Below are positions 3 to 15,565 of a stretch of DNA of 64,000 nt, piece after piece. The translations under genes and the position numbers were made by a program. The stretch spans positions 62,001-126,000 of the forward strand of contig NSJK01000012.1 of assembly GCA_002632325.1 (NCBI GenBank), in the 5' to 3' direction. Numbering within the stretch: the stretch's first letter is position 1; each line of letters opens with the position of its first letter. This DNA comes from Lysobacterales bacterium (GTDB lineage: Bacteria; Pseudomonadota; Gammaproteobacteria; Xanthomonadales; Rhodanobacteraceae). Below the pieces are notes generated by a model. The model ran no database searches. It worked only from the letters and a program-made list of their open reading frames with translations, and was not told where the DNA came from.

Positions 3-1934
3 TCGCGCAATTTCGACGCCAAGACCGCTGCTTGCGTCGATTTCTTCCAGCACGCCAATGGCGGTTGGCTCGCCGCCAACCCGATCCCGTCGCAGTACAG
101 CCAGTGGAGCCTCGACGACGAGCTGCGCGAGCGCAATCTCGAACTGTTGCGCGAGATCCTCGAAAGCGCCGCGAAAAATCCGGGCGAGAACGGCAGCATC
201 ACGCAGAAGATCGGCGACTTCTACGCCAGCGCGATCGACGAGTCGGCAATCGAAGCGGCCGGCTACACGCCGATCAAGGCCGAACTGGCGCGCATAGACG
301 CGCTCAAGACCACAGCCGAAGTTGCGCTGCTGGTACGCCGCTGGCATGCGCAAGGACTTCCGGTCCTGTTCCGTCTCGAAGCCGAGTCGGACATGAAGAA
401 TCCCGACCTCGTGATCGCCTACGCGATGCAGGGCGGCCTGGGCTTGCCCGACCGCGACTACTACCTGCGCAGCAACCCGAAATCGCGCGCTCTGATCGAC
501 CGGTATCGCGCCCATGTCGCGCGCATGCTCGGATTGGTCGGTGTGGCCGATCCGAACCAGCAAGCCGGTTGGGTACTCGATCTGGAAACACGCTTGGCCA
601 AAGCCTCGCTCGATCGCGTTGCCCTGCGCGAACCGCTCAACACCTATCACATGGTCGAACTGGGCGATGCCGATGCTCAGAATCCGACGCTCGACTGGAG
701 TGCAACGTTCGCCGAACTCGGCCGCAAGGACATCGCGCGCTTCTCGCTGTCGCAGCCCAAGTTCTTTGCTGCCGCGGATCAGGCGCTCAAGCAGGTTCCC
801 GTAGCGCACTGGCAGGCCTATCTGCGCTGGCATCTGGTCGATGCGAGCGCGGATGGACTCAGCGCCGCCTTCGTCGATGCCAACTTCGATTTCCGCTCGC
901 GCACCTTGCGCGGCGTGCAGGAACTCAAACCGCGCTGGAAACGCGCCATCGATGCCACCAACCGCGCGCTCGGCTTTGCGCTCGGCGAGGAATACGTGCG
1001 TCGCCGCTTTCCGCCGCAGGCCAAGGAGCGCGCCCTCGTTCTGGTCAAGAACCTGCAGACCGCGCTGCGTGCACGTCTGGAGAAACTCGATTGGATGAGC
1101 GCACCCACCAGGCAGGCCGCTTATGCCAAGCTCGCCAGCTTCACACCCAAGATCGGCTATCCAGACAAATGGCGTGACTATTCGGCGCTCGCCATCCAGC
1201 GCGGCAGCTATTTCGACAACATGCGTGCCGCCGAACTGTTCGAAACCCGGCGTCAGATCGCGCGCATCGGCAAGCCGCTCGACCGCAGCGAGTGGATGAT
1301 GCTGCCGCAAACGGTCAATGCCTACTACAACCCGCTGCAGAACGAAGTGGTATTCCCCGCCGCACAGATGCAGCCACCCTACTTCGATGCCCAGGCCGAC
1401 GACGCGGTCAACTACGGCGGCATTGGCGCCGTGATCGGCCACGAACTGCTGCACGGCTTCGACGACGAAGGCAGTCGCTTCGATGCGCAAGGAAACTTGC
1501 GCGATTGGTGGACTGCGACCGACCGCAAGCGCTTCGAAGCGCGTACCGAGAAGCTGGTCAAGCAGTTCGATGCCTACGTGCCGATCGACGAGCTGCACAT
1601 CAACGGCAAGCTCACGCTCGGTGAGAACATCGCCGATCTCGGCGGCGTGCTGGTGGCCTGGGACGCCTTCGGGCTCACCGCGCAGGCCAAGCGCAGCGAC
1701 AAGATCGACGGCCTCGATCCGGCGCAGCGCTTTTTCCTTTCCTTCGCCCAGAGCTGGCGAACCCAGCAACGTCCCGAGGCCCTGCGCCTGCAAGTCCAGT
1801 CCAACGAGCATGCGCCGGCCAAGTATCGCGTCAACGGCCCGGTCAGCAACCTGCCGCAATTCTCCACCGCCTTCGGCTGCAGCAGCGGCCAAGCGATGGC
1901 GCGTCCCGCGGCAACGCGCGTGGACATCTGGTAA
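3..1934 (+). CDS. M13 (neprilysin/PepO-type) zinc metallopeptidase, 5'-truncated by the window edge
   Basis: The reading frame is open from base 3, so the true start and any signal peptide lie to the left; about 643 residues are present. Family hallmarks are visible: a NAYYNP motif, the zinc-binding HELLH in VIGHELLHGFDDEG, the downstream ENIADLGG block that supplies the third zinc ligand (Glu), and the family-typical C-terminal Trp (ends DIW). M13 enzymes are usually extracytoplasmic endopeptidases acting on oligopeptides. The next gene encodes a close paralogue only 38 bases downstream, so the pair looks like a tandem duplication. The 5' part cannot be assessed. The family call is firm; the substrate is unknown. 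Confidence 0.93.
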   Translation, partial: SRNFDAKTAACVDFFQHANGGWLAANPIPSQYSQWSLDDELRERNLELLREILESAAKNPGENGSITQKIGDFYASAIDESAIEAAGYTPIKAELARIDALKTTAEVALLVRRWHAQGLPVLFRLEAESDMKNPDLVIAYAMQGGLGLPDRDYYLRSNPKSRALIDRYRAHVARMLGLVGVADPNQQAGWVLDLETRLAKASLDRVALREPLNTYHMVELGDADAQNPTLDWSATFAELGRKDIARFSLSQPKFFAAADQALKQVPVAHWQAYLRWHLVDASADGLSAAFVDANFDFRSRTLRGVQELKPRWKRAIDATNRALGFALGEEYVRRRFPPQAKERALVLVKNLQTALRARLEKLDWMSAPTRQAAYAKLASFTPKIGYPDKWRDYSALAIQRGSYFDNMRAAELFETRRQIARIGKPLDRSEWMMLPQTVNAYYNPLQNEVVFPAAQMQPPYFDAQADDAVNYGGIGAVIGHELLHGFDDEGSRFDAQGNLRDWWTATDRKRFEARTEKLVKQFDAYVPIDELHINGKLTLGENIADLGGVLVAWDAFGLTAQAKRSDKIDGLDPAQRFFLSFAQSWRTQQRPEALRLQVQSNEHAPAKYRVNGPVSNLPQFSTAFGCSSGQAMARPAATRVDIW

Positions 1935-1972
1935 CCAACCCGCTTTCCGCTTCGATCATCCAAGGAACCGTC

Positions 1973-3997
1973 ATGAAACCGCATTCGCTCAAACATCTCG
2001 CCCTCGCGATCTGCACTGCGCTGTCGACCAGCGCGATGGCCGCCTCGTTCGACATCCACGATCTCGACAGCAAGATCAGCCCTTGCGCCGACTTCAACGG
2101 TTTCGTCAACGCCAAGTGGGTTGCCGCCAACCCGATTCCGGCGGACAAGACACGCTGGGGTGCGTTCGATGCGCTGCGTGAGCAAAGCCTCAATACCCAG
2201 CACGAGATCGTCGAAGCCGCGGCCAAAAATGCCGACAGGGCCGCAGCCGGTTCAATCGAGCAGAAGATCGGCTGGTTCTATCGCGCCGGAATGGATGAGG
2301 CCGCGATCGAGAAGGCCGGGCTCGGCCCGATCAAATCCGAACTCGATCGAATCGCCGCGCTCAAGACACCGCAGGACATCGCCGACTACATCATCGACGA
2401 GCACGCACGCGGCTTGGGCGAACTGTTCATGTTCGGCGCCGGGGCCGACTTCAAGAATTCGAAAGTGCAGATCGGATTTGCAATGGAGGGTGGTCTCGCT
2501 CTGCCGACCAGCGAGTACTACAGCAAGCCCGAGTACAAGGATCTGCGCAGCGCCTATGTCGCGCACGTCGCCAGGATCCTGCAACTCGCCGGCACAAGTG
2601 AAGCAGACGCCAAGCGTGATGCTGATCGCGTGCTTGCTTTCGAAACGCGCCTGGCTGCTGCGTCACTGACGCCGGTCGAGGGGCGCAAGCCCGAGAACCA
2701 GTATCACTTCGTAAGCGTCGCCGACGCCGACAAGGCCTCGCCGAATTTTTCGTGGAGCAAGTTCCTCGCTGCGCAGCACGCCGACATCCAGGGCGGCTTC
2801 TCGCTGTCGCAGCCCAAGTTCTTTGCCGAGTTCGACAAGATGCTCGTCGACGTGCCGGTGAGCCACTGGCAGGCCTATCTGCGCGCCCATGCAATCGATG
2901 GCGCCGCGCCGTATCTGTCCAAGGCGTTTGCCGATGAGTCCTTCGCGTTCTACAAGAACAAGCTCAATGGCCAGAAGCAGGAAGAACTGCGTTGGAAGCG
3001 TGTATTGGGCGCCACCAACCGGACAATGGGCATGGCTCTGGGCGAGCTCTACGTGGCCAAGGCCTTCCCGCCCGAGTCGAAGACTCGTGCGATGGAACTG
3101 GTCAAGAACGTCGTTGCCGCACTCAAGACCCGTATCGAAGGTCTCGACTGGATGAGCGCCGATACCAAGAAGAAGGCGCTCGAGAAGTGGGCAAGCTTCC
3201 TGCCCAAGATCGGCTATCCGGACAAATGGCGCGACTGGTCGGGTCTGCAGGTCAAACCCGATGACTATTTCGGCAACATCCTGGCTGCGGCCCGCTTCAA
3301 CCACGCCTGGGACGTGGCCAAGATCGGCAAGCCGACCGACCGCCTCGAATGGGGCATGACGCCGCAGACCGTGAATGCCTATTACAACCCGACCGACAAC
3401 ACGATCAATTTCCCGGCCGCAATCCTGCAGCCGCCGTTCTTCGACGCCAAAGCCGACGATGCGCTCAACTATGGTGGTATCGGCGCCGTGATCGGCCACG
3501 AAGCGACGCATGGTTTCGACGACGAAGGCAGCCAGTTCGACGCGCAGGGCAACAACGTCAATTGGTGGAGCAAGGAAGATCGCGAGAAGTTCGACGCGCG
3601 CACAGCCAGATTGGTCAAGCAGTTCGATGCCTACGAGGCGCTGCCGGGCAAACACGTCAACGGCCAGCTCACGCTCGGCGAGAACATTGCCGACCTCGGC
3701 GGACTCAATGTCGCCTGGGATGCGTTCCAGATCGCGCTCAAGGCGAACCCGAAAGAGAACAAGAAGATCGACGGCTACACACCGGATCAGCGCTTCTTCC
3801 TCAACTGGGCACGCGTGTGGCGCGGTTCGGTGCGACCCGAACGCGCGCAGGTCATGCTCAACGCCGACCCGCATGCGCCCACGCAGTTCCGCGCGATTGC
3901 AGCACCGTCGAACATGCCGGCTTTCGCCACCAGCTTCGGTTGCAAGGCGGGTGATTCGATGGTGCGCGGTGGTGACGCACAAGTGAAGATCTGGTGA
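1973..3997 (+). CDS. M13 family zinc metallopeptidase, secreted, complete
   Basis: This is a 674-residue protein with an N-terminal signal peptide (basic start, hydrophobic core, cleavage near SAMA-A at residue 22-23). The usual M13 fold length is about 650-700 residues. Visible motifs are NAYYNP, the zinc site HEATH at about residues 509-513, and ENIADLGG with the zinc-ligand Glu near 570; the protein ends in a conserved aromatic KIW tail. It probably acts in the periplasm on small peptides. It directly follows the truncated paralogue at bases 3-1934, from which it differs in the third and fourth residues of the HExxH motif (AT instead of LL). A strong terminator follows at 4024, so the pair ends its transcript here. 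Confidence 0.95.
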   Translation: MKPHSLKHLALAICTALSTSAMAASFDIHDLDSKISPCADFNGFVNAKWVAANPIPADKTRWGAFDALREQSLNTQHEIVEAAAKNADRAAAGSIEQKIGWFYRAGMDEAAIEKAGLGPIKSELDRIAALKTPQDIADYIIDEHARGLGELFMFGAGADFKNSKVQIGFAMEGGLALPTSEYYSKPEYKDLRSAYVAHVARILQLAGTSEADAKRDADRVLAFETRLAAASLTPVEGRKPENQYHFVSVADADKASPNFSWSKFLAAQHADIQGGFSLSQPKFFAEFDKMLVDVPVSHWQAYLRAHAIDGAAPYLSKAFADESFAFYKNKLNGQKQEELRWKRVLGATNRTMGMALGELYVAKAFPPESKTRAMELVKNVVAALKTRIEGLDWMSADTKKKALEKWASFLPKIGYPDKWRDWSGLQVKPDDYFGNILAAARFNHAWDVAKIGKPTDRLEWGMTPQTVNAYYNPTDNTINFPAAILQPPFFDAKADDALNYGGIGAVIGHEATHGFDDEGSQFDAQGNNVNWWSKEDREKFDARTARLVKQFDAYEALPGKHVNGQLTLGENIADLGGLNVAWDAFQIALKANPKENKKIDGYTPDQRFFLNWARVWRGSVRPERAQVMLNADPHAPTQFRAIAAPSNMPAFATSFGCKAGDSMVRGGDAQVKIW

Positions 3998-9045: not shown

Positions 9046-9059
9046 TTGACGCACGTCAA
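9046..9059 (+). promoter_or_regulatory. FNR/Dnr-type site upstream of norC
   Basis: The sequence TTGAC-GCAC-GTCAA is a perfect inverted repeat with the FNR/Dnr architecture (TTGAt-N4-aTCAA); flanking bases extend the dyad by one pair (C...G). A -10-like TACAAA lies at 9082-9087, centred 32 bases from the site centre. That is the geometry of a class II activated promoter (site at -41.5) and predicts a start of transcription near 9094, about 90 bases before norC. This implies induction of the NO reductase operon by low oxygen or NO through a CRP/FNR-family regulator not encoded in the window. Confidence 0.8.
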
Positions 9060-9183
9060 GGTTCGCGCGCACGCTCAGGCGTACAAAGCCGATGGCATGC
9101 CGAGAACCACGTCCACATCGCGTTCGTGGCATCCGCTGGAATCCCTTCGACCCGCCGCTTGACTTGCCTCTGGGGAGAGCGCA

Positions 9184-9813
9184 ATGCCTGAATCCACTGC
9201 AGTCGTTTTTGAACCCGGCGCTGGCGACCCTCGCTTCTGGCGAGACGGTGCCATCGCCACCACGGCCTTCATGCTCCTCGTTCTGTTGCTGCTGACAGTC
9301 GACAGCCTCAGGGTGCTCACCGAAGGCGGTGGCGGCAACGTGCCTGCCTACACCGTCATCAACCAGAAGATCACCTACGAGTTCGATGCTGCATCGAACA
9401 TGGACAAACCGGTGATCGGCGGTGAGGAACTGCTGTTCGGACATCGCTACAGCGAAGCCGAAGCCAAGGCGATCATGGACAAGGGCAAGCTGGTGATCCA
9501 GAGTCGCTCCTGCATCAACTGCCATGCCTTCTTCGGCAACGGTGCCTACTACGCCCCCGACCTCACCAAGGCCTGGCTTGATCCGACCTGGGAGAAGATG
9601 TGGATGCCGATGACCCAGGCCAAGACCAGGGAAGATGCGATGGTGCAATTCCTCATGCATCCGGATCGCTATCCGACCTGGGCACGACAGATGCCCAATC
9701 TCAATCTCAGCGAAGAAGAGGCGCGCGCCGTCACGGCGTATCTGAAGTGGATTTCTTCAGTCCAGACCAACGGCTTCCCGGCCGGCTTCGGCCGCCGTGA
9801 AGTGGCTCGATAG
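9184..9813 (+). CDS. norC: nitric oxide reductase cytochrome c subunit NorC
   Basis: NorC is the membrane-anchored c-type cytochrome that passes electrons to NorB for reduction of NO to N2O. The 209-residue product has one transmembrane helix (about residues 23-40) and a heme c site CINCH with Cys110, Cys113 and His114, followed by a GNGAYYAPDL segment typical of NorC. A likely axial Met lies in the RQMPNL region. It is longer than the ~146-residue NorC of Pseudomonas; the extra length lies largely between the membrane anchor and the heme motif. A GGGGAG ribosome-binding site precedes the ATG. The stop is 12 bases before norB, and the FNR/Dnr-type promoter lies directly upstream. Confidence 0.95.
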   Translation: MPESTAVVFEPGAGDPRFWRDGAIATTAFMLLVLLLLTVDSLRVLTEGGGGNVPAYTVINQKITYEFDAASNMDKPVIGGEELLFGHRYSEAEAKAIMDKGKLVIQSRSCINCHAFFGNGAYYAPDLTKAWLDPTWEKMWMPMTQAKTREDAMVQFLMHPDRYPTWARQMPNLNLSEEEARAVTAYLKWISSVQTNGFPAGFGRREVAR

Positions 9814-9825
9814 GGGAGAGGCGGC

Positions 9826-11220
9826 ATGAACCAATCCAAGAAACTCGGGGTGCAGTATCTGACTGCCTCGATCGTGATGATGGGCGCCCTGCTGCTGTTC
9901 GGGCTGCTCGCATCGATTTTCTACCTCAAGTACGGCTTCCTGCTCGGCAAGCTCGATTTCAACATCGTCAAGCAGGTGCACATCAACGCCCTGATCATTG
10001 CTTGCCTGTGGGGTTTCATGGGCGCGATCTACTGGTTTCTGCCCGATGAACTGGGCATAGAAACCGTCGGCATCGGCCTCGCCAGACTGTTGTTCTGGGT
10101 ATTCGTCGCCGCGGTGGCCGTGGTCGTGGTGGTGTTCATTTTCGTCCAGTACGGCTCCAGCGATGAATCGGGCATGTGGCTGGTCAATCAGGGCCGCAAG
10201 TACGTCGAGGCGCCGCGCTGGGCTGCGGTCGGCATCGTCGCAGTGTTCCTCACGCTCGCCTACAACATCTTTGCCAGCGTCGCCAAGGCGCGCAAGGTCA
10301 CCGGCATCATGGGTGTGTTGATGACGACGATGATCCCGCTGATCGCGGTCTACCTGATCGCATTCCCGGCGCCGACCAACATGTCGGTCGATCTGTACTG
10401 GTGGTGGTGGCTCGTCCACATGTGGGTCGAAGCCACATGGGAACTCATGATCGGCTGCATCCTCGCGCTCGCCCTCATGAAGCTACTGGGCACCTCGCGC
10501 AAGGTGGTGGAAATCTGGCTGTATCTGGAAGTCGCGCTCGTGCTCGGCACCGGCATCCTCGGTCTGGGTCATCACTATTTCTGGATCGGCACGCCGCAGT
10601 ACTGGCTCAGCATCGGCGGCATCTTCTCGGCGCTTGAACCGCTGCCCCTGCTCGGCATGGTCGTGCATGCGATCTACGATGCCGGCAAGCACCAGATGAA
10701 GACGCACAACAAGCCGGCCTTCCTGTGGCTGATTGCCGAGGCATTCGGCAACTTCATCGGCGCCGGCATCTGGGGCTTCATGATGACCCTGCCGCAGATC
10801 AATCTGTATTCGCATGGCACGCAGTGGACCGTTTCACATGGCCATTTCGCGTTCTACGGCGCCTACATCACCGGCATCATCGCGGTCGCCTACATGGTGG
10901 CGCAGGAATCACGCGGCATTCGCGAAGTCCAGGGCAATGCCTGGAAATGGGCCTTTGCCGGTCTCAACATCGGCATGGTCGGCATGGTCGGCGCGCTGCT
11001 GGTTTCCGGCATGTCCGAAGCCTTCATCGGTCGCGCACTCGGCGGATCCACCCTGGATGGTTTCATGGCCTCGCAGTCCAACAGCTGGTTCATGCAGGGC
11101 ATGATCGCGCGCACCGGCTTTGGCGTGATCATCGTCGCCAGCTACTTCATCCTCGCCTGGGATCTGCTCACCCTCGGACGGCGCAGCGAGAAATTGAGTC
11201 CGGCACTGGCCACGACATGA
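9826..11220 (+). CDS. norB: nitric oxide reductase catalytic subunit NorB (cNOR)
   Basis: NorB is the 12-helix heme-copper-family subunit that holds the low-spin heme b and the heme b3-FeB centre. The 464 residues match the usual length (~465). Expected ligands are visible: His52 and His340 for heme b, His338 for heme b3, His198, His249 and His250 for FeB (the last two in GLGHHYFW). The conserved glutamates near FeB are Glu202 and Glu206 in the segment after WWWWLVHMW. The FeB histidine pair and the glutamates distinguish it from an oxygen reductase. The stop overlaps the next ATG (ATGA), indicating translational coupling. No norD or norQ follows. Confidence 0.97.
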   Translation: MNQSKKLGVQYLTASIVMMGALLLFGLLASIFYLKYGFLLGKLDFNIVKQVHINALIIACLWGFMGAIYWFLPDELGIETVGIGLARLLFWVFVAAVAVVVVVFIFVQYGSSDESGMWLVNQGRKYVEAPRWAAVGIVAVFLTLAYNIFASVAKARKVTGIMGVLMTTMIPLIAVYLIAFPAPTNMSVDLYWWWWLVHMWVEATWELMIGCILALALMKLLGTSRKVVEIWLYLEVALVLGTGILGLGHHYFWIGTPQYWLSIGGIFSALEPLPLLGMVVHAIYDAGKHQMKTHNKPAFLWLIAEAFGNFIGAGIWGFMMTLPQINLYSHGTQWTVSHGHFAFYGAYITGIIAVAYMVAQESRGIREVQGNAWKWAFAGLNIGMVGMVGALLVSGMSEAFIGRALGGSTLDGFMASQSNSWFMQGMIARTGFGVIIVASYFILAWDLLTLGRRSEKLSPALATT

Positions 11221-11513
11221 ACGCAACCTGGCTGCTTCCCACCGCGATCCTGCTGGGCATCTACGTGCTCTGCGCGGGCTGCTATGGCCTGGTCTACGCG
11301 TTGGGAAGATTGCGTGAGAGCCGCAAGGTGACACGCACGGCCTATGGGTTCTATGCAATGCAGGGACTGACCACCCTCTTGCTGGTGGCGCTGACGCCAC
11401 TGGCATGGGGGTGGAAGCTGTTCCTTGTGGCCTGCTTTCTCGTCTATGCAGCGATCCCGCCGATCACCTGGCGGCAACTCGAACGTACACACGCCCTGGA
11501 GCACGAATCATGA
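11217..11513 (+). CDS. small membrane protein of the norCB operon, unknown function
   Basis: The 98-residue product was delimited from the ATGA overlap with norB; the reading frame is open further upstream but only this start makes sense. It has about three hydrophobic segments (near residues 5-28, 47-65 and 68-85), basic residues after the first helix, and a polar His/Glu-containing C-terminus. No cofactor motif is visible; two Cys (AGCYG and VLCAG) lie in the first helix. I do not recognise the family. Its place, locked by overlaps between norB and another small membrane protein, suggests a role in NO reductase assembly or as an extra subunit, perhaps analogous to NorE/NorF, but this is inference. 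Confidence 0.7.
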   Translation: MNATWLLPTAILLGIYVLCAGCYGLVYALGRLRESRKVTRTAYGFYAMQGLTTLLLVALTPLAWGWKLFLVACFLVYAAIPPITWRQLERTHALEHES

Positions 11514-11851
11514 TTCCCGGCATCCTCAACACCCTGCTTTCGTTTGCGCTGGTCTATTTCTCGATCCTCAACCTGCCGATGCTCAAGGAGAACCCTTGGT
11601 ACATCGTGATCGCAGGTGTTCTCATCATCGTGCTCGCCTTGTGGTCACGGGCCGGCGACTTGCTCAAGTGGTTTTCGACCGTCACCATCCTGTTGGGCGC
11701 GATGCTTGCTGCGTTCGGCATCTGGAACCTCACCTCGCCATTCGCCGACCTGTTCGTGTTCTGGTTCGTGTTCTGGACGGGCGCACTGGTGGGCGTGATT
11801 GCCCTGTGGGATGCGCTGTATCGCCCACGTGCGCAGACATCGGCTGCCTGA
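11510..11851 (+). CDS. second small membrane protein of the norCB operon, unknown function
   Basis: The start is the ATG that overlaps the stop of the preceding gene (ATGA at 11510-11513), giving 113 residues. Four hydrophobic helices are evident (about 3-20, 26-42, 47-68 and 75-97), with short polar ends and a WDALYRPR-like basic C-terminus. It contains no heme, metal or enzyme motif. The tight coupling to norC and norB and the following cytochrome c gene place it in NO respiration. It could help assemble or stabilise the reductase; no family assignment is possible by eye. Confidence 0.72.
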   Translation: MIPGILNTLLSFALVYFSILNLPMLKENPWYIVIAGVLIIVLALWSRAGDLLKWFSTVTILLGAMLAAFGIWNLTSPFADLFVFWFVFWTGALVGVIALWDALYRPRAQTSAA

Positions 11852-11884
11852 TCCTCTTCCATTCATCGCAACAAGGAGTCGTAA

Positions 11885-12211
11885 ATGAAATTCCCGGTCA
11901 CGCTGTCGGCGGTGCTCTTCATGGGTTCCATCGCCATGCCGCTCACTGCATCAGCAGCCGACAGTGCCGAAACCCTGGTCAAGTCCAATGGCTGCACCGC
12001 CTGCCATTCGACCGACACCAAGCTGGTTGGCCCTTCCTACAAGGATGTCGCTGCCAAGTACAAGGGCGACAAGGAAGCCGAAGCCAAACTGATTGCCAAG
12101 GTCAAGGCGGGCGGCTCTGGCGTGTGGGGTCCGGTGCCGATGCCACCCCACCCGGCGATCAGCGATGCCGACCTCAAGACCATGGTCGACTGGGTGCTGG
12201 CACTCAAGTAA
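11885..12211 (+). CDS. periplasmic class I cytochrome c (c551/c8-like)
   Basis: This 108-residue protein has a signal peptide (cleavage near ASAA-D, residue 24-25) and one heme c attachment site, CTACH, near residues 38-42. A C-terminal segment WGPVPMPPHP contains the likely axial Met, as in cytochromes c551. After processing about 84 residues remain, the normal size for a small soluble electron carrier. As last gene of the norCB transcript it probably brings electrons to NorC. It could also serve the CuA-containing enzyme encoded convergently. An AAGGAG ribosome-binding site precedes the ATG. Confidence 0.92.
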   Translation: MKFPVTLSAVLFMGSIAMPLTASAADSAETLVKSNGCTACHSTDTKLVGPSYKDVAAKYKGDKEAEAKLIAKVKAGGSGVWGPVPMPPHPAISDADLKTMVDWVLALK

Positions 12212-12321: not shown

Positions 12322-12921
12322 TCAATGCCGCCCTTCCTGCGCTTGCGCATCCGTCCTGAAGTCGAAGCGACCCAACAGCAACTTGCCCATGAGCGCCAGG
12401 AACAGCGCGGCTCCGATCACCATCAGCCAGTCGCCGAGCCGCTGCTGGTCATCGAGCAGATAGTTGCTGCACAAACGTTCCGGCGAGACTCGATACAGCC
12501 AGCCCAACCGGAAGCAAGTGGCAATCGTCTCGGCAAGAAACACGCCGCGCAGCACGAAACCCGCACGTCCCCACGACAAGGCCAACGGCAGTCCGATCAG
12601 CAAAGGGACAGTGGCATATTTCGCCGCGGCAACGCCCACATCATCGACGGCCGCATCGAGCGCACGCGGCAACATCCACACCAGCGAGGTCATCGACGCG
12701 AGCAGCAAGCCGCTGATGCCCCAGCGATCCCAGCGTGCCAACGCTCCGCGTACCGCCGCAGGGATCGCCGACGCCGAGCAGACGCCGATTGCTGCAAGCA
12801 ACGGTAGCTGAAGCAGCATCTGTGCGCTCATCGAACTCTCGAGCCACCCCCGTGCCGGCGGACTGGCCAGCACAAGACTTGCAGCCACGGAACCAGCGAT
12901 CATCAGCAATCGCCGCCTCAT
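12322..12921 (-). CDS. polytopic membrane protein of the heme-copper cluster (orf1-like)
   Basis: The 199-residue product has about five or six hydrophobic helices beginning at the very N-terminus and ends in a short charged tail. No enzyme motif is seen. A stretch MSAQMLLQLPLLAAIG resembles membrane proteins that accompany heme-copper oxidases and assist their assembly. It is the last gene of the leftward subunit II, subunit I, SCO, membrane protein cluster and overlaps the SCO gene by ATGA. Its position corresponds to orf1 in the described norSY-senC-orf1 clusters; similarity to that protein could not be tested here. Confidence 0.75.
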   Translation of the reverse strand: MRRRLLMIAGSVAASLVLASPPARGWLESSMSAQMLLQLPLLAAIGVCSASAIPAAVRGALARWDRWGISGLLLASMTSLVWMLPRALDAAVDDVGVAAAKYATVPLLIGLPLALSWGRAGFVLRGVFLAETIATCFRLGWLYRVSPERLCSNYLLDDQQRLGDWLMVIGAALFLALMGKLLLGRFDFRTDAQAQEGRH

Positions 12922-13535
12922 TGCGCGAGCACCGCCTGCAGCGCGGCTGCCACCACCTCGGGCTGACCCGCATCGAAGATCCGCACCAGACGCCCCTGCG
13001 GATCGACCAGCGCAATCGATGCATTGTGGACGTAGCCCCCCAAGCCGTCGTCAAGCACGCGAATGCCGAAGGCGCGAGTCGCTGCTGCGACACCCTCGGC
13101 ATCCAGCGGGCGCGCGGCCAGCCATCCGCTACCCCGATCGCCGAAACGACGCTGATATGCCGCCAGTTGCGCGGGACCGTCGTGTTCGGGATCAAAGCTG
13201 ATGCTGAGCAGCTGCAGTCGACCGCTGGCGAGCGGCGCAGCCAGACGATCCTGCAGCCGAGCGAAATCACTCCCGAGCACCGAGCAGTAGGTCTGGCAGC
13301 GCGTGTAGATGAAATCCACCAGCAGCCAGTTGCCACGCAGATCCTGCAGCGCGATCTGGTCTCCGTTGGCTGCCTGCAGCGCGAGATCGGGCACGCGCAC
13401 GGCATGCTCGCGTACCGCGAGCCGCCGTGCCGACTCAGTGGTGAAGACACGCAAGCCGTCGGTGGCGGCGCCCAGAGTCGCGCCGCCTGCAATCACAATC
13501 AGCAGGCTAAGCAGCAGCGTGCGCAGCGTGTCCAC
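12918..13535 (-). CDS. SCO1/SenC-family copper chaperone of the heme-copper cluster
   Basis: SCO proteins deliver copper to the CuA centre of oxidase subunit II. This 205-residue product has an N-terminal membrane anchor (about residues 7-24), then a thioredoxin-like domain with the copper-binding CQTYC (Cys80, Cys84) and the distal ligand His170 in GYVHNAS. The start codon is GTG and lies 29 bases inside the preceding subunit I gene; no better start exists downstream before the anchor. The stop overlaps the next ATG. A second, separate SCO gene lies at 26805. Its presence here fits a CuA-bearing partner. Confidence 0.9.
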   Translation of the reverse strand: MDTLRTLLLSLLIVIAGGATLGAATDGLRVFTTESARRLAVREHAVRVPDLALQAANGDQIALQDLRGNWLLVDFIYTRCQTYCSVLGSDFARLQDRLAAPLASGRLQLLSISFDPEHDGPAQLAAYQRRFGDRGSGWLAARPLDAEGVAAATRAFGIRVLDDGLGGYVHNASIALVDPQGRLVRIFDAGQPEVVAAALQAVLAQ

Positions 13536-14994
13536 TGACCGGCCCTCGCAGCAGGCCGATCGAAATCCGCGCCGCGAAATAGATCATCGCCAGCAGCACG
13601 AGAATCGCGCCCGCTGCGCCCATCTGATCAGTGAAGACCCACTCCGGCAGGTGCGAGGACATGCGCCGCGCCACGCTGAGATGCCCCGCCGCCAGGAAGG
13701 CCAGCGTGAAGACCAGACCGCCGAGCAGATAGAGCGGCAAGCCCAAGCGATCTGCGCCGGAATTGGGGGCCTGATTCCGGTAGCTGCCCATCACGTGATA
13801 CATCAGGGCCAGCGCCATCGGCAGCACGCCGAGCAGCAGGTAGAAATGGAAATGACCCGGCACCCATTGGGTGTTGTGCATCACCCGGTTGATGCTGATC
13901 GTGCCGTCGAGTATCGCCGGCAGGATGCCTGCCGCCCAACCGAACATCGAGAGAATCAGCAAGCGCGAAGGCATCGTCCAGCGCATTCCCGAACGATGGA
14001 TGTTGGCCAACGCGCCCCACACGGTGACGAGGAACACAGGAAAACCCGCACTGTAGGAAATGATCTGTCCGGTGATCGACACCCAGCGAGGCTGCGCATA
14101 GTCCATCAGCAGATGGTGTGGAAACACGATGATCACGAAGATCGTGCTGGCGGCCCACGACCACAGGAACGGTCGCGAGATTGCATAGGGGCGGCCGGAA
14201 TACCGTGCGAGCAATTCGTAGACCGCGATCACGCCCATGTAGATTGTGGCGTTGATGTACATGTGACCGAACCAGTAGGTGAGATTCTTCGCGACCAACG
14301 GATCAAGCTTGAATTCCGGATAGGCGATGCCGACGAGGTACATCACCAGCACCACTGCACCGGCAAGGATGCCGAGCGAATTGGCGATGATCACCATCGT
14401 GCTCGCGACCACGGCTTTCGGATGTTCCGGATCGATGGTGCCGCCGAACAGCCATTGCACACCGAGGCTGCGCCCGAGATTGCCGTACTTGCGAATCAGG
14501 CCCGCAGCCGCGTCGAGATAGAACAGCAACATGCCCACGCCGATCAGCAGATACCCGATCATGAACCAGGCGCCCGAGGCATTGGGCCACATGCCCATCG
14601 AATGGGTCGGCAGCGGATACAGAAAGGTCCACAGTCCAGCATAACGGCCGAGGAAGATTGCGCCGATGATGCACAGCGCGCCGAGAAGAAACAGCACGTA
14701 GTTGGCGACGAACGCCCACAGGTGAAGATTCACGTACTTGCGCAGGAAAAACCACATCACCGCGGTGGTGACCATGCCCATGGTGCCGACCATGCCCGCG
14801 CCATGCATCGAAAGGAATTGATAGAACAAGTCCGGGGGTACTTCGAGCCAGGTTCCCTGCGCCATGCGCATGATCACGCCCAGCAGCATCATCAGCACGA
14901 ACAGGATGACAGCGCTGATCATGTAGAGATTGAAAGCGGCACGCTCGCCCGCGGACAGGCGCTCGGACTCCGGATACATCGTCAACGCAGCCAT
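13507..14994 (-). CDS. heme-copper oxidase-family subunit I lacking the active-site tyrosine; probable sNOR-type NO reductase catalytic subunit
   Basis: The 495-residue, ~12-helix protein has B-type (ba3-like) layout: low-spin heme His64, CuB-type His244, His293 and His294 (FPHHLLMD), and HNTQWVPGHFHF with heme ligands His381 and His383. In A- and B-type oxygen reductases the helix VI motif is GHPxxY, with a Tyr four residues after the first CuB His; here it is GHMYIN, with Asn248 in that place. Loss of this Tyr is expected of NO rather than O2 reduction. The chosen ATG at 14994 has GGGAGG just upstream; an earlier in-frame start would overlap subunit II. A standard annotation would read cytochrome c oxidase subunit I; the sNOR reading is inference. 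Confidence 0.85.
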   Translation of the reverse strand: MAALTMYPESERLSAGERAAFNLYMISAVILFVLMMLLGVIMRMAQGTWLEVPPDLFYQFLSMHGAGMVGTMGMVTTAVMWFFLRKYVNLHLWAFVANYVLFLLGALCIIGAIFLGRYAGLWTFLYPLPTHSMGMWPNASGAWFMIGYLLIGVGMLLFYLDAAAGLIRKYGNLGRSLGVQWLFGGTIDPEHPKAVVASTMVIIANSLGILAGAVVLVMYLVGIAYPEFKLDPLVAKNLTYWFGHMYINATIYMGVIAVYELLARYSGRPYAISRPFLWSWAASTIFVIIVFPHHLLMDYAQPRWVSITGQIISYSAGFPVFLVTVWGALANIHRSGMRWTMPSRLLILSMFGWAAGILPAILDGTISINRVMHNTQWVPGHFHFYLLLGVLPMALALMYHVMGSYRNQAPNSGADRLGLPLYLLGGLVFTLAFLAAGHLSVARRMSSHLPEWVFTDQMGAAGAILVLLAMIYFAARISIGLLRGPVSGHAAHAAA

Positions 14995-14995
14995 C

Positions 14996-15565
14996 TCAGC
15001 CTCCCGGTGCCTGGGCCACTTCGAACGAAGTGACCATCGGTGCGTGTCCCAGTCCGCAATACTCAAGGCACATCACCTTGTAGGTGCCCGGCTGGGTGAA
15101 GGTGTAGAGGATCTTGTTGGTGTAGTCAGGCATCGCCTGGGTCTGGATCACGATGCGTCCATCCGGAGCGTAGATCGCAAAACCATGATTGACGTCCGCG
15201 CTGGTCACGCGGAACTCGACGGGAGAACCCGCATCCAGTCGCAAGCTGCTGCCCGCTGCCTGCCCCTGCCTGCTCATCTGCCATGACCATTGCCGTCCGA
15301 GCACATCGACGACCTGAGAAGCCTGCAGGGTCGTGTCCTGGCGTGGAATCGGAAAACGATGCAGGGTCGCATAGCTCGCGCCCACGAAGATCAGGAGCAG
15401 CAGGGCGAACAAGCCCTTGCGCAAACCCGCGATCAGTTTCTGTGTGCGAGTGAGTGTGGCCGCATCCGCGGCCTTGCCCGCATTGGCGACGACATGGACA
15501 AAGACCAGGGCGACCAGCCCCATCCCCGCCATTGCGATTGCCCAGATGATGTCCTGGAAAGCCAC
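14996..15565 (-). CDS. heme-copper oxidase-family subunit II with complete CuA site
   Basis: The 189-residue product has two membrane segments (about 7-27 and 50-64) and a periplasmic cupredoxin domain. All CuA ligands are visible: His127 (VNHGFA) and the cluster Cys166, Glu168, Cys170, His174, Met177 in CLEYCGLGHAPM. It therefore accepts electrons from a soluble cytochrome c or cupredoxin and passes them to subunit I. The start is GTG at 15565, supported by a strong GGGGGAGG ribosome-binding site. It is the first gene of the leftward cluster; its stop lies one base before the subunit I ATG. It resembles the small subunit of the norSY-type enzyme by position. Confidence 0.9.
   Translation of the reverse strand: MAFQDIIWAIAMAGMGLVALVFVHVVANAGKAADAATLTRTQKLIAGLRKGLFALLLLIFVGASYATLHRFPIPRQDTTLQASQVVDVLGRQWSWQMSRQGQAAGSSLRLDAGSPVEFRVTSADVNHGFAIYAPDGRIVIQTQAMPDYTNKILYTFTQPGTYKVMCLEYCGLGHAPMVTSFEVAQAPGG

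Follow-up and report, generated by a model that had tools for sequence, protein, structure and literature searches.

An sNOR-family norSY-senC-orf1 cluster, probably encoding a CuA-type nitric oxide reductase, beside a canonical cNOR in a Rhodanobacteraceae genome

The name sNOR covers heme-copper enzymes of Bacillus and of nitrifiers (PMC3475470). Table A4 of PMC8756737 gives the residue at the position of the cross-linked Tyr as Asn in sNOR and CuANor, Gln in eNOR and Glu in cNOR, and PMC3475470 places Asn in the CuANOR of B. azotoformans as well as in a shorter, 12-helix type. The genes form a norSY-senC-orf1 cluster in ammonia oxidisers (PMC4940428), and sNOR is part of a reference set of Nor proteins (PMC12569097). 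cNOR, qNOR, bNOR and eNOR have been characterised biochemically, sNOR has only been proposed, and CuANOR is listed as bNOR (all PMC11388526). Occurrence beyond nitrifiers is on record for Silicibacter, Deinococcus and Geobacillus (PMC8756737), for Bacillus (PMC3475470) and for Bacillota (PMC11388526). The family is, in other words, already described, and the locus analysed here is an ordinary member of it: a four-gene cluster in a 64,000-nucleotide stretch (the window) of contig NSJK01000012.1 from a Lysobacterales bacterium of the Rhodanobacteraceae. (Among the literature matches listed for Rhodanobacter and Dokdonella, no title or abstract opening deals with sNOR, which does not amount to a claim that it is unreported there.)

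The genes norS, norY, senC and orf1 follow one another, tightly packed, on the minus strand (Table 1; coordinates are positions in the window, and transmembrane and ligand readings on norS and orf1 were made by eye or from the translation where so stated). A single base separates norS from norY, norY overlaps senC by 29 bases and senC overlaps orf1 by 4. All four reading frames are open, those of norS and norY being intact over their tabulated spans. The mechanical open reading frame of norY opens at a TTG at 15066; the ATG one base past the norS stop is its likely start, and residue numbering refers to that ATG. Open frames and conservation across the whole cluster rule out chance or a frameshift artefact.

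That this locus belongs to the sNOR family is, as far as sequence can tell, nearly certain, and the assignment follows from tree, residue signature, CuA subunit and senC-orf1 synteny taken together: Asn at the cross-link position, six His ligands, a CuA-bearing subunit II, the gene order, and grouping with Nitrosomonas NorY. Helix VI of norY reads F242-G243-H244-M245-Y246-I247-N248, so that the position four residues past the first CuB His (H+4), occupied by Tyr in B-type enzymes, holds Asn here. Profile alignments set this Asn column against the Tyr of GHPVVY / GHPIVY in the ba3 oxidases 7deg and 4gp8. A scan of named genomes confirmed 385 loci, the best 80 of which were retained for locus counts (many of them with short flanks). 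H+4 is Asn in all 80, Nitrosomonas europaea among them, and H+2 is variable (Tyr in 42, Phe in 28, Val in 6 and Ile in 4); Asn is therefore a fixed trait of the family and Tyr246 is not. The six heme and CuB His (H64, H244, H293, H294, H381 and H383) and N248 are invariant in a 55-row alignment made up of the window, 42 of the 80 loci (the other 38 lie outside it) and 12 further loci; the weak matches L010 and L011, the partial L023, and L014, which has one stop, were left out of alignments. Y252 and Y259 are invariant in the same rows, the latter standing 15 residues after H244 (H+15), where ba3 oxidases carry Tyr too, and position 246 is other than Tyr in 37 of the 55.

Subunit II retains the full set of CuA ligands, in NHG and C-L-E-Y-C-G-L-G-H-A-P-M. 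The pattern C-x-[EQ]-x-C-x3-H-x2-M is matched by 77 of 78 relatives, the exception (L066) having Ala for Glu with both Cys, His and Met kept; the first CuA His is likewise found by pattern in 77 of 78, and the exception (L095) has it when read directly. An earlier note on this DNA, made from the letters of the window, had described the His ligands, Asn248 and the complete CuA site of these proteins, and translation and alignment bear it out; the Tyr two residues before Asn, which it had thought might complicate the picture, loses that standing with its lack of conservation. The match of norS to the NCBIfam CoxB model (1.2e-22) lies under the model cut-off. CxxxC is kept by the senC homologues of all 80 loci, and the senC product probably loads CuA. 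At a threshold of 0.001 neither Pfam nor NCBIfam matches the orf1 product, although a homologue is present at every one of the 80 loci; the product is perhaps an assembly factor or a third subunit.

Homologues of senC and orf1 lie downstream of subunit I in 80 of 80 loci and a subunit II homologue lies upstream in 78, the contig of the other two beginning within subunit I; the complete norS-norY-senC-orf1 order is thus seen in 78, and its last three genes in the two contig-end loci. The 80 include a Dokdonella metagenome-assembled genome (MAG; 93%), another at 80%, and Rhodanobacter, Castellaniella, Polaromonas and Thermomonas. Subunit I of Nitrococcus mobilis (L069) is 65% identical, that of eight Nitrosomonas 50-51% and that of N. 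europaea (L109) 50%. Distribution at closer range is uneven. A search of 59 genomes from this family, that of the window among them, yields 7 matches at E 0.001: apart from the window's own, three have 70-75% identity, one has 49%, and two weak matches have 28%; three other sampled species of the genus have no norY match at this threshold, and the gene is accordingly patchy. At E 1e-40, 14 of 369 genomes of a class sample and 6 of 398 of a phylum sample match, counting the genome itself in both. A profile of 21 sNORs run over 299 genomes, with up to 5 candidates scored per genome, gave five sNORs at 696-753 bits, and the other matches, among those listed, reach at most 56.1 bits. A few matching MAGs are labelled as other phyla (Gemmatimonadetes, Armatimonadetes), labels that may be binning errors. 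Six loci (L060, L065, L067, L070, L074 and L080: three Thermomonas, one Castellaniella and two other MAGs) have GHMYAN or GHMYPN for GHMYIN, the altered residue directly preceding the Asn.

In a 57-row tree the sNORs form one clade (98/98) with L024 and long outgroups included, and the A-type, B-type and Gln-type rows also form clades; cbb3-like and cNOR rows sit on very long branches, and unsafe joins were flagged by the program. With cbb3-like, cNOR and L024 rows removed (40 rows), support is 100/100 for sNOR, 96/95 for the four B-type rows and 98/96 for B-type plus Gln-type. (Twenty sNOR rows of the 55-row alignment are omitted from the larger tree and more from the smaller; both carry long-branch warnings, B-type oxygen reductases are represented by four rows, and the B. 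azotoformans CuANOR/bNOR is absent.) The sNOR clade holds Nitrosomonas europaea, N. mobilis and Nitrococcus. The alignment and tree that the earlier note had proposed thus put the locus outside the clade of the four sampled B-type oxygen reductases, and its identification as sNOR-type, with a norSY-senC-orf1 arrangement, is upheld.

All ten Gln-type rows have Gln at H+4, as HSSQQ or HSTQQ, and take the label eNOR-like from Table A4 of PMC8756737, which gives Gln for eNOR. Membership of eNOR is ruled out for the present locus by Asn in place of Gln and by the separate clade, and membership of cNOR by the CuA-type subunit II, the true cNOR being the neighbouring norB product. Gln at the cross-link position was seen in Pseudomonadota at L010 (which belongs to the window's own family), at L124, L127, L128, L130 and L135, and at L142-L159 (some genomes twice), with HSTQQ in L151 and L154 and HSSQQ in the other eNOR-like loci. 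L024, a class member (1411-3192, minus strand), is a 34% relative whose GHTFTN also places Asn at H+4; its long branch arises at the base of the sNOR clade, and it may represent a further Asn-type group.

The AlphaFold2 model of subunit I (mean predicted local distance difference test, 88.6; predicted template modelling score, 0.91) has 12 long helices, with Y246 and N248 on one unbroken helix, 232-266. The 50 PDB chains listed by structure search are all heme-copper oxidases, with Z from 33.7 to 39.5. Identity is highest for two B-type chains, 7deg (20%, Z 34.2) and 4gp8 (19%, Z 33.8), whose Z is slightly lower; Foldseek and VIA place A-type chains slightly above B-type. Shared folds say nothing on function. 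The best PDB profile match of norY is 7deg, the Thermus ba3 oxidase (2.2e-20).

What the enzyme does is a separate question from what family it belongs to. Judged from its genes and their setting, the cluster probably encodes a CuA-type heme-copper nitric oxide (NO) reductase with NO reduction as its main activity. This reading is favoured by the Asn published for sNOR, by the same change in CuANOR, by the NirK, cytochrome d1-family protein and adjacent cNOR of the host, and by regulators or promoter boxes of NO or anaerobic type at some loci. In oxygen reductases the Tyr supplies the fourth electron as the O-O bond is broken; making one N2O from NO takes two electrons and involves no radical. 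Loss of the Tyr would therefore cost an NO reductase nothing, and would leave O2 splitting by the usual mechanism short of its fourth electron. Electrons would enter at CuA from a periplasmic cytochrome c (possibly the small one encoded next to the cluster), pass to the low-spin heme and on to the heme/CuB pocket, where 2 NO + 2 e- + 2 H+ would yield N2O + H2O. In its host the enzyme might act beside cNOR, downstream of NirK, perhaps where conditions disfavour cNOR.

The host genome has four COX1-family genes: aa3-like, cbb3-like (type labels assigned from motifs), cNOR norB and sNOR norY. Its NirK, which scores above cut-off, is encoded away from the sNOR/cNOR region, and its cytochrome d1-family protein (a 721-residue frame) may be NirS. 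NosZ is likely absent: TIGR04246 has two matches, both far below cut-off and lying within norS and at the NirK locus, respectively; PF18764 gave no match in any control.

A perfect palindrome upstream of norC agrees with TTGAYNNNNRTCAA, which we take to be the FNR/DNR-type consensus. Such a box turns up in about 0.1% of letter-shuffled 300-base regions, and it stands upstream of norS in 6 of 77 relatives, as against the same 0.1% or so of shuffles (gene starts being those of tblastn matches, and shuffles keeping letters only). At 10 of the 80 loci an Rrf2-family gene is found no more than 2 kb from the cluster (at nine, no more than 160 bases), compared with one at greater distance (295,510 against 386,552 bases), a count biased in that its query derives from a cluster found in the same flanks and in that L106 and L107 look like near-copies. 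Rrf2 genes adjoin several further sNOR loci outside the 80 too. Eight of the proteins were scanned (five whole open reading frames, three matched parts): all exceed the Rrf2 superfamily cut-off, and the NsrR score is above that of RirA in five. Iron-sulphur Rrf2 regulators keep three cysteines in the C-terminal part, and three are present there in the six sequences examined. In Nitrosococcus oceani, NsrR is Noc2967, beside senC-norY-norS (Noc2969-2971; PMC3772326).

Part of this evidence, and part of the literature, weighs against NO reduction. The window has no FNR/DNR box upstream of norS and no match in the Rrf2 search. All eight Rrf2 proteins stay under the NCBIfam cut-offs of both NsrR and RirA, and three score higher with RirA, an iron regulator, than with NsrR. 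Co-occurrence with nirK is not significant (2 of 14 sNOR genomes, 18 of 355 others; one-sided p 0.17), NCBIfam matches nothing in the scanned part of the cytochrome d1 protein, which leaves NirS unconfirmed, and NorB lies near sNOR in only two of the 80 loci, many with short flanks (L030, and L067 with a distant NorB and NorC). The N. europaea sNOR has been argued to be a high-affinity oxidase and its role as NO reductase disputed: under O2 limitation norSY and senC rise 2.7- to 10.8-fold with no significant change in cNOR, and NorY lacks the NorB-type glutamates (PMC6967387, which credits the first indirect evidence for NO, in Nitrococcus, to another paper). For the earlier note's claim of a CuA-type NO reductase this means that the family placement stands and that the NO activity is a proposal under dispute.

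An enzyme of that kind, a B-type-related oxygen reductase of high affinity that has given up the cross-linked Tyr and reduces NO as a side reaction, would also account for the uniform retention of Tyr259 and for an oxidase as the best PDB profile match, and forcing sNOR and B-type into one clade costs 7.6 log units and is not rejected (approximately unbiased test, p 0.115). Its difficulties are that the H+4 Tyr is missing from all 80 relatives with no conserved Tyr at H+2 instead, that the four O2-reducing B rows keep to their own clade, that the host already has aa3-like and cbb3-like oxidase genes, and that NO- or anaerobic-type regulators or boxes, or a cNOR, lie near a subset of the loci; on balance we regard it as unlikely. 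An ordinary oxidase in which Tyr246 takes over as the cross-linked residue is far less probable still: Tyr is present in the window protein and in slightly over half of the relatives, but Phe, Val or Ile replaces it in the other 38 of 80, and in the modelled helix that it shares with N248 a residue at H+2 should face away from the H+4 side. A Tyr so poorly conserved is no substitute cross-linker. A different matter is the use to which NO reduction would be put. Detoxification or aerobic NO reduction in place of respiratory denitrification is compatible with the preferred reading, that of an NO reductase, and has somewhat less than an even chance of being the main role. It would fit the Rrf2-family neighbours of the cluster, some of which resemble NsrR, the lack of significant association with nirK and the redundancy with an adjacent cNOR, and PMC3475470, citing others, puts sNOR forward as a candidate for reducing NO aerobically. 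Against it, no regulator of the Rrf2 type was found in the window, and respiratory use is equally likely, the host having NirK and cNOR.

The cNOR genes, on the plus strand, converge on the sNOR cluster, and the Dokdonella locus L030 has homologues of all five genes on this side, at 82-98% identity. L030 suggests that the bacterium itself belongs to Dokdonella or stands near that genus. Neither norQ nor norD was recognised among the open reading frames scanned around 9046-12211. Elsewhere in the family, a gene of the formate/nitrite transporter family follows the cluster at L093, L096, L098, L101, L103, L104, L105, L106, L107 and L109 (7 of these 10 being Nitrosomonas; the assignment was checked on two of the ten proteins). 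At L093 (3520-5154, minus strand) and L108 (1099-2760, plus strand) a second heme-copper subunit lies within a few kb of sNOR; its best match is ccoN (cbb3 type) at about half of the model cut-off, as for an odd C-type relative.

Table 1. Features of the sNOR cluster and the adjoining cNOR genes, in order of position in the window
Feature	Position	Strand	Evidence
FNR/DNR-type palindrome TTGACGCACGTCAA, upstream of norC	9046..9059	+	0 mismatches to consensus TTGAYNNNNRTCAA
norC, canonical cNOR heme c subunit	9184..9813	+	Cytochrom_C Pfam 4.7e-08; 97% identical in Dokdonella L030
norB, canonical cNOR, HMWVEATWE	9826..11220	+	NorB chain 3o0r_B, E 1.9e-88
Two small open reading frames	11217-11513, 11510-11851	+	between norB and cytochrome c
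Small cytochrome c	11885..12211	+	Cytochrom_C Pfam 2.4e-09; 90% homologue in L030, one short weak match in L067
orf1, hydrophobic (by eye), final gene of cluster, start overlapping senC stop	12322..12921	-	synteny in 80/80
senC, SCO1/SenC copper chaperone with C-x3-C	12918..13535	-	SCO1-SenC Pfam 1.3e-17
norY, catalytic subunit I, 495 residues, 12 long helices in model	13507..14994	-	COX1 Pfam 2e-45
Asn248 codon, replacing cross-linked Tyr	14251..14253	-	translation; Asn in 80/80 relatives
norS, subunit II, two N-terminal transmembrane segments (by eye) and periplasmic cupredoxin domain, complete CuA site	14996..15565	-	COX2 Pfam 1.1e-07

The interest of the locus lies in the question of sNOR activity and in the pairing with cNOR. 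Should sNOR be an NO reductase, N2O producers are undercounted wherever annotation pipelines label it a cytochrome c oxidase: Pfam and NCBIfam match it here only to generic oxidase models, and KEGG likewise labels sNOR as oxidase (PMC11388526). If instead it respires O2, or both O2 and NO, without a redox-active Tyr, a whole enzyme clade found in nitrifiers and denitrifiers would break the His-Tyr rule for O2 reduction, an outcome to which we give a small chance. This genome, with cNOR and sNOR adjacent and NirK elsewhere, is a convenient test bed in which the two roles could be separated.

Of the systems already described, the sNOR of Nitrosomonas europaea is the same as this locus in its four genes and their order, in Asn, in the CuA subunit and in clade. 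The setting differs from that in ammonia oxidisers, NirK being present in the host and cNOR directly beside the cluster. The host has no match to the ammonia monooxygenase model PF02461, which matched no control genome either, and to that extent the earlier note's picture of a host that does not look like a nitrifier is plausible; as a novelty it does not hold, sNOR outside nitrifiers being on record in the papers cited at the outset. The bNOR/CuANOR of B. azotoformans (PMC3475470, PMC8756737) shares Asn and the CuA subunit and differs in its longer subunit I of 13 transmembrane helices, as against 12 helices here, and in a small extra peptide. The B-type oxidases, of which Thermus ba3 (7deg) is by profile among the closest solved relatives, share the His ligands and the Tyr at H+15 but retain the H+4 Tyr and stand in a clade of their own. 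The eNOR-like proteins, also heme-copper subunits I without the Tyr, differ by Gln and by a separate clade that joins the B-type rows. cNOR (NorCB), for which the proposed reaction is the same, differs by its heme c subunit, its glutamates and a very long, separate branch.

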